The position numbers and the translations under genes were made by a program. This document shows, piece after piece, positions 33,386 to 34,929 of a stretch of 64,000 bases of DNA (position 1 is its first letter; each line of letters starts with the position of its first letter). Under the pieces are notes generated by a model, which worked only from the letters and a program-made list of their open reading frames with translations, did not search any database and was not told the DNA's origin. This DNA comes from Pseudomonadota bacterium (GTDB taxonomy: Bacteria; Campylobacterota; Campylobacteria; Campylobacterales; Sulfurospirillaceae): positions 1-64,000 of the forward strand of contig JAGDMU010000002.1 of NCBI GenBank assembly GCA_017860615.1, written 5' to 3'.

Positions 33386-34618
33386 GTGAGTACCTTTGTG
33401 GGTAGACAACCGATTTTTGACAAAGAGGGTGTATGCTTTGGGTATGAGCTCCTTTACCGCTCATGCGACATCAACAATGTAGCGACGTTCCAAGATAATG
33501 CTAAAGCCTCTGCACGTGTTATCGTTAACCTCATTCACAATATCGGACTTACCCCTATTATAGGGCATAAGATAGGCTATATCAATGTCGATGAAACCAT
33601 GCTCTTTAGCGATGCCATTTTACTGCTTCCCAAGGAACATTTTAGATTTGAGATTTTAGAGCACACGAAAGTCTCTTTAGCGCTTTATGAACGCATCAAA
33701 CACCTTCATACGCTGGGCTACCGTTTCTCTTTGGATGATTTTGATTGCAGCGATACGATGATCAAATATTATGAACCTCTTTTCCCCTATATTGAGATCA
33801 TCAAAGTGGACATTCAAGCGATTGGAACAACGCATCTTGGAGCGGCCATTGATAAACTTAAAAAATACACGATTCCTCTTTTGGCAGAAAAAATAGAGAC
33901 GCATGAAGAGTATGAAATATGCTCAAAACTCGATTTTCAATTTTTTCAAGGCTACTTTTTTGAAAGACCTGTGATTTTAAGTGGGAAAAAAATCGAGCCC
34001 AATACTGTCAATGCGCTTAGACTTATCAACTGTATTCAAGAAAATAACGATGTTGCTTACATCTCTCACAAATTTGCGACCTGCCCCGATTTGGTTTATA
34101 ACCTTTTGCGCCATGTTAACTCTGGAGCGTATCATTTTAAACAAAAAATTACCTCTATTAAGCAAATGGTACTGCTATTGGGACCTCAAAAAATTATCTC
34201 ATGGCTTGGGCTTTTTCTCTATGGTATGCCGCAAAATCGTCCCTTTGGAGCTGAAATTTTCAACAATGCCAAATTCCGCGCTAAAGTGATGGAAGAGTTA
34301 GCCCTTACATGCAATAAACCTGAACTTGCCAATAAAGCCTTTTTAACAGGAAGCCTCTCTTTAATTGATGCTTATCTCAACATTACAATGCTTGAATTTT
34401 TAAACAATGTGCATCTAGACGATGAGATCAAAACGGCCTTGCTCTTTCGTGAAGGCTTTTTAGGAGAGCTACTTTACATTGCCACAGAGATGAATCACTC
34501 CAATGATACAGATGCGACCATCAAAAAACTGGGGCACTATCCATGTTTTAGCACGGAACAGCTCTACGATGCTTGCACCAAAGCAACCATTTTTGTTGAA
34601 GAGACCGAAAATCATTAG
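33386..34618 (+). CDS. EAL-HDOD signalling protein (YuxH-like)
   Basis: A 410-residue protein: N-terminal EAL-like domain (~1-200) beginning FVGRQPIFDKEG, C-terminal HDOD domain (~205-400). The EAL signature is degenerate (YELLYR in place of EALLR), so c-di-GMP hydrolysis is doubtful and binding or protein contact is more likely. The start is GTG at 33386 with AAGGAG upstream. It is followed 15 bp later by the selenoprotein gene, perhaps in one transcript ending at the terminator at 34880-34902. Confidence 0.85.
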   Translation: MSTFVGRQPIFDKEGVCFGYELLYRSCDINNVATFQDNAKASARVIVNLIHNIGLTPIIGHKIGYINVDETMLFSDAILLLPKEHFRFEILEHTKVSLALYERIKHLHTLGYRFSLDDFDCSDTMIKYYEPLFPYIEIIKVDIQAIGTTHLGAAIDKLKKYTIPLLAEKIETHEEYEICSKLDFQFFQGYFFERPVILSGKKIEPNTVNALRLINCIQENNDVAYISHKFATCPDLVYNLLRHVNSGAYHFKQKITSIKQMVLLLGPQKIISWLGLFLYGMPQNRPFGAEIFNNAKFRAKVMEELALTCNKPELANKAFLTGSLSLIDAYLNITMLEFLNNVHLDDEIKTALLFREGFLGELLYIATEMNHSNDTDATIKKLGHYPCFSTEQLYDACTKATIFVEETENH

Positions 34619-34633
34619 AACCAAGGAGTTTGT

Positions 34634-34879
34634 ATGAATGTCGTTATTTTTTATTGTACCCGTTGAGGATATATGCCACGAGCTTTCCGTGCGAAAGATG
34701 AAATTTTAAGTGCATATCCTCATGCGAACGTATCACTGAGCCCAAAAATGGGTGGATTTTTTGATGTCATGGTTGATGAGAAGATTCTTTTCTCTAAAAC
34801 AGAGAAAATTGGTACACCCATAGAGCGCTTTCCTGAGAGCGGAGAGATTATTGCATTGCTTCAAAAAGCAGGTTATTAG
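34634..34879 (+). CDS. SelW-like (Rdx family) selenoprotein with in-frame UGA
   Basis: An 81-residue protein if TGA at 34664-34666 is read as selenocysteine. The ATG at 34634 follows AAGGAG by 6 bp. Residues 1-16 read MNVVIFYCTRUGYMPR, giving the CxxU redox motif of the Rdx/SelW family. The rest fits the family: a segment like SPKMGGFFDVMVD and the C-terminal RFPESGEII. Standard gene calling would start at the ATG at 34673 and lose the redox motif. A hairpin that fits the bacterial SECIS rule follows the UGA. Rdx proteins have a thioredoxin-like fold; the physiological partner is unknown. It ends in its own terminator. Confidence 0.87.
34664..34697 (+). promoter_or_regulatory. UGA selenocysteine codon and candidate bSECIS hairpin
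   Basis: UGA at 34664-34666. Downstream CTTTC (34683-34687) and GAAAG (34693-34697) pair around the loop CGTGC. The loop begins 21 nt after the UGA and has G in its second position, matching the published bacterial SECIS pattern as I know it. A competing fold pairs GC(C)ACG with CGTGC around AGCTTTC. No folding energy was computed. Confidence 0.65.
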
Positions 34880-34902
34880 CCTTTGCATGTCACATGTAAA
34901 GG
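34880..34902 (+). terminator. Rho-independent terminator after the selenoprotein gene
   Basis: CCTTTGCATGT and ACATGTAAAGG pair over 11 positions with one G-T wobble, starting one base after the TAG stop. TTTTCATATTTTTTT follows directly. The stem contains the ACATGT word seen in other palindromes of the window. Confidence 0.75.
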
Positions 34903-34929
34903 TTTTCATATTTTTTTAAAAGGTTCATA

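Follow-up and report, generated by a model that had tools for sequence, protein, structure and literature searches.

Does the UGA codon in the putative active site of a short, SelW-like gene of Sulfurospirillum end translation, or is it read as selenocysteine (Sec)? The locus lies on the forward strand of a 64,000-nt stretch of DNA (hereafter the window). From an ATG at 34634, the frame reads MNVVIFYCTR-UGA-GYMPRAF… and remains open to the TAG at 34877–34879. A plain ORF caller run on the window reports a 68-aa ORF from ATG 34673, from which the active site is missing. The features of the gene and its surroundings are as follows:

33386–34618, + strand: upstream 410-aa gene, HDOD/EAL-like by inspection, ending 15 nt 5′ of selW
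34623–34628, + strand: ribosome binding site AAGGAG, 5 nt upstream of the ATG
34634–34879, + strand: selW-like CDS, 81 residues including U11, stop TAG
34655–34657, + strand: codon of Cys8, the putative resolving Cys of CxxU (C-T-R-U), invariant in an alignment of 22 homologues
34664–34666, + strand: in-frame UGA, read here as selenocysteine (U11); TGA in homologues spanning the site in frame
34878–34904, + strand: hairpin resembling an intrinsic terminator, immediately 3′ of selW

An AAGGA-type motif is retained ahead of the selW start among the homologues of the genus. The 410-aa gene keeps its place upstream of selW at each of the 18 loci inspected in the genus, and the two genes are likely co-transcribed; a promoter scan at the selW locus gave no signal above chance.

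The read-through product matched the Pfam family Rdx (PF10262; 2.6e-18, 66.4 bits, cut-off 22.6) and TIGR02174 (44.8 bits, cut-off 34.2), and scored slightly below the cut-off of 88 for the NCBIfam family NF041051 SelTWH_Campy (9e-24, 83.5). The last two are SelT/SelW/SelH models, of which NF041051 was built for (seleno)proteins of the Campylobacter type. C8 and U11 of the CxxU motif (C8-T-R-U11) occupy invariant columns in the alignment of 22 homologues. A structure model built from this alignment (mean pLDDT 88.7) adopts the thioredoxin-like Rdx fold and places the motif directly after the strand formed by residues 2–8. Its best matches among solved folds, found with Foldseek, were the SelW-related structures 2OBK, 2OKA, 2FA8, 3DEX and 2OJL (TM ∼0.8), and the solved relatives returned by sequence search were likewise SelW-related proteins. 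The closest named loci, those of S. cavolei UCH003 and S. diekertiae JPD-1 among them, belong to Sulfurospirillum, which is therefore the likely genus of the host. A family search found no second Rdx gene in the same genome. An earlier, sequence-only reading had proposed this start behind AAGGAG, the frame through the TGA to 34879, and a Rdx/SelW-like protein with CxxU as its redox motif, and had predicted that a normal annotation would begin at 34673 and lose the active site; all of this is borne out by the sequence, the ORF call, the family profiles, the invariant C8 and U11, the homologue alignment and the fold.

We then asked how selW and its TGA are conserved. Within the genus, selW was present in 18 of 24 genomes, with TGA at the site in all of them; across the order, 81 of 399 genomes had a selW match. 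Among the matches listed, every in-frame match spanning the site carried one TGA, always at CxxU, and this TGA is common to several families of the order. Upstream of it, mean variability at the three codon positions was 0.15/0.14/0.41, third positions being ∼3 times as variable as first and second ones, while the non-coding stretch ahead of the ATG gave 0.42/0.34/0.47. The sequence upstream of the TGA is thus conserved as protein, and the homologues do not show the plain stop without upstream conservation that the sequence-only reading had named as evidence against itself. Individual loci differed in other ways. One genome (G361, L086) has two selW copies ∼0.4 kb apart and another (G303, L106) a second, more diverged copy ∼16 kb away, with one TGA in each copy. 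In a one-contig genome with selA (G012, L039/L040), selW is split around residues 52–68 by an apparent frameshift, which could be real or a sequencing error.

Downstream of the UGA, the transcript can form a compact stem-loop of the kind that directs Sec insertion in bacteria (bSECIS):

34683–34697, + strand: bSECIS apical stem-loop CUUUC/CGUGC/GAAAG, all 5 pairs present in each of 55 distinct TGA-bearing sequences

It consists of CTTTC (34683–34687), the loop CGTGC (34688–34692) and GAAAG (34693–34697). The sequence-only reading had described this hairpin as lying 21 nt after the UGA, within the bacterial distance rule; the hairpin and its compliance with the rule hold, but the 21 nt reach from the UGA to the loop, and the stem already begins 16 nt after the UGA. 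Published bSECIS rules ask for a loop 16–37 nt past the UGA and 3–9 nt long, a stem of at least 4 bp, a G in the first two loop positions and an MFE ≤ −7.5 (PMC13188914). Here, the loop lies at 21 nt, comprises 5 nt and starts with CG, the stem has 5 bp, and the 61-nt fold reaches −14.6 kcal/mol. The hairpin also agrees with the one published for epsilonproteobacterial SelW (PMC4607533).

Crucially, all five pairs occurred at an identical offset from the UGA in the 55 sequences, with compensatory changes, and a G stood within the first two loop positions in each of them. The inner three pairs vary in type: the third, for example, is U-A, G-C, C-G, A-U or U-G, and the fifth C-G, G-C, A-U or U-A. 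When codons were swapped for synonymous ones at observed usage (1000 draws), a mean of 6.8 and a maximum of 15 complete helices were obtained, compared with the 55 observed. As this null preserves the proteins and not the relatedness of the sequences, the excess demonstrates selection on the RNA and carries no exact probability. In slid registers, 45–70% of positions paired, versus 100% in the true register. Taken together, upstream codons conserved in frame, a conserved TGA and a covarying hairpin mean that this gene with an in-frame UGA is not a product of chance.

These observations bear directly on the least improbable of the alternatives, in which translation does end at the UGA and the working protein is a 68-aa Rdx fragment that lacks the active site. 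The in-frame ATG at 34673, from which the ORF caller starts, is compatible with it. However, beyond the genus the Met of GYMPRA gives way to K, R or L (NYKP, NYRP, NYLP) in most relatives, so that no such start exists in them, and neither the protein-like conservation of the codons 5′ of the UGA nor the compensated hairpin 3′ of it fits a genuine stop. We therefore regard a translated fragment as very unlikely.

In this species, the apical hairpin can be embedded in a longer structure:

34664–34722, + strand: longer stem in which UGAGGAUAU pairs with AUAUCCUCA around the apical hairpin (MFE −14.6 kcal/mol, z −1.85)

The lower stem is near-perfect and takes in the UGA itself, with 8 of 8 outer pairs here and fewer in relatives. 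We rejected it as a part of the SECIS, since other members of the genus preserve it only in part and the z-score is a modest one. That the longer stem, in which the UGA pairs with 34720–34722, acts atop the conserved apical hairpin as a species-specific brake or enhancer of Sec insertion seems improbable.

Decoding a UGA as Sec requires dedicated machinery, and the sequence-only reading had suggested searching the genome for selA, selB, selC and selD, a lack of selB or selC being the other finding that would have spoken against it. All were found: selA (533.6 bits), selB (299.2) and selD (362.7) scored above curated cut-offs, as did a tRNA-Sec on contig 18 (55.2 bits), which ARAGORN also reported as tRNA-SeC with anticodon tca. 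On contig 28, selA adjoins selB, and selD lies on the same contig. The genome further contains two formate dehydrogenase alpha subunit frames (L115 on contig 7, L116 on contig 28) with one in-frame TGA each. These are probable further selenoproteins, and SelW is thus unlikely to be the only protein that the Sec system serves. Three genomes (G002, G003, G017) keep the Sec machinery without a selW match, indicating that selW is dispensable.

Across the order, selA co-occurred with selW in 75 of the 81 selW genomes (Fisher p 3e-19, in a test that ignores shared ancestry) and was not found in the other six. In G018, G023, G313 and G341, missing contigs are the likely cause, because tRNA-Sec is still present; G313 also has selB above the cut-off. 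For G282, a Campylobacter-type genome, family searches found no selA, selD or tRNA-Sec and no selB match above the cut-off; a weaker selB match, a shorter frame of ∼400 residues, is probably another elongation factor. The selW of this genome (L109) has a frameshift immediately 5′ of the TGA and a broken outer hairpin pair. Finally, selA, selB, selD and tRNA-Sec were not found in the Sulfurospirillum sp. UBA2217 MAG (G014), 99% complete by estimate, whose selW (L036/L045) has the TGA and a frame and hairpin that appear intact. Either the Sec trait was lost recently in this lineage or the assembly has a gap.

The decay seen in G282, with its frameshift, broken pair and lack of detectable machinery, lends some plausibility to the idea that the gene in the window is likewise a decaying pseudogene, in which a Cys codon mutated to TGA. 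Here, however, the frame is intact, synonymous change prevails upstream of the TGA, the TGA is shared by homologues in several families of the order and the host genome has the Sec machinery, and we give this explanation hardly any credence. Insertion of a different amino acid at the UGA, through misreading as Trp or Cys without SelB, could be entertained in view of the intact frame of G014, but it is just as implausible given the covarying SECIS hairpin, the association with selA and a Spirochaetota homologue (L050) with Cys (TGC) at the Sec position.

We conclude that the segment almost certainly encodes a SelW-like selenoprotein (Rdx family, thioredoxin-like fold) with a SelB-decoded UGA, which would act as a small cytosolic selenol/thiol oxidoreductase. 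At the level of sequence, the frame, the family, the conserved TGA, the covarying hairpin and a complete Sec machinery are all in place, and SelB-dependent decoding follows from these parts together with what is established about bacterial Sec insertion. In the proposed mechanism, SelA and SelD would make Sec-tRNA(Sec), and SelB carrying it would bind the stem-loop at 34683–34697 and decode the UGA at 34664 as Sec. Judging from the family, Sec11 would then attack a disulfide or peroxide, and Cys8 would resolve the resulting Se–S bond. The gene is presumably expressed in this species.

Compared with solved Cys-containing relatives (3DEX, 2FA8, 2OBK, 2P0G), the protein has the same fold (TM ∼0.8) and a CxxC/CxxU site, but it shares only ∼22–30% identity with them and differs in its recoding; the aligned 3DEX has Cys where U11 stands here. 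Mouse SelW (2NPB) is likewise a thioredoxin-like Rdx protein with CxxU, although identity is 25%. Eukaryotic SECIS elements are located in the 3′ UTR. The nearest known system is Campylobacter jejuni SelW (CJnc60/selW; NF041051), with the same length (80–81 aa), CxxU position and apical hairpin register, and a gene that is often unannotated. Differences lie in the sequence: identity to a Campylobacter-type homologue (L053) is ∼41%, CTRUGY here corresponds to CNLUNY there, and CUUUC/GAAAG to CUGCA/UGCAG. C. jejuni SelW was listed as early as 2005 (PMC1242214), and in 2015 epsilonproteobacterial SelW genes, with a matching 5/6-bp hairpin, were reported as overlooked by annotation (PMC4607533). 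For the C. jejuni protein, readthrough to full length has been shown by Ribo-seq, with footprints and a peak of termination where the full-length frame ends, and by mass spectrometry, which detected peptides past the Sec site (PMC11955535).

The selW described here is thus an ordinary member of a kind already described in Epsilonproteobacteria. Its active-site Sec is written as a UGA 'stop', which makes the gene easy for gene finders to miss; the hidden gene is confirmed, and standard annotation may drop the active site of selW. What becomes of selW once the Sec machinery is lost can be read from natural controls such as G282 and perhaps G014, and over the whole bacterial order the SelW SECIS hairpin has been retained with compensatory changes.
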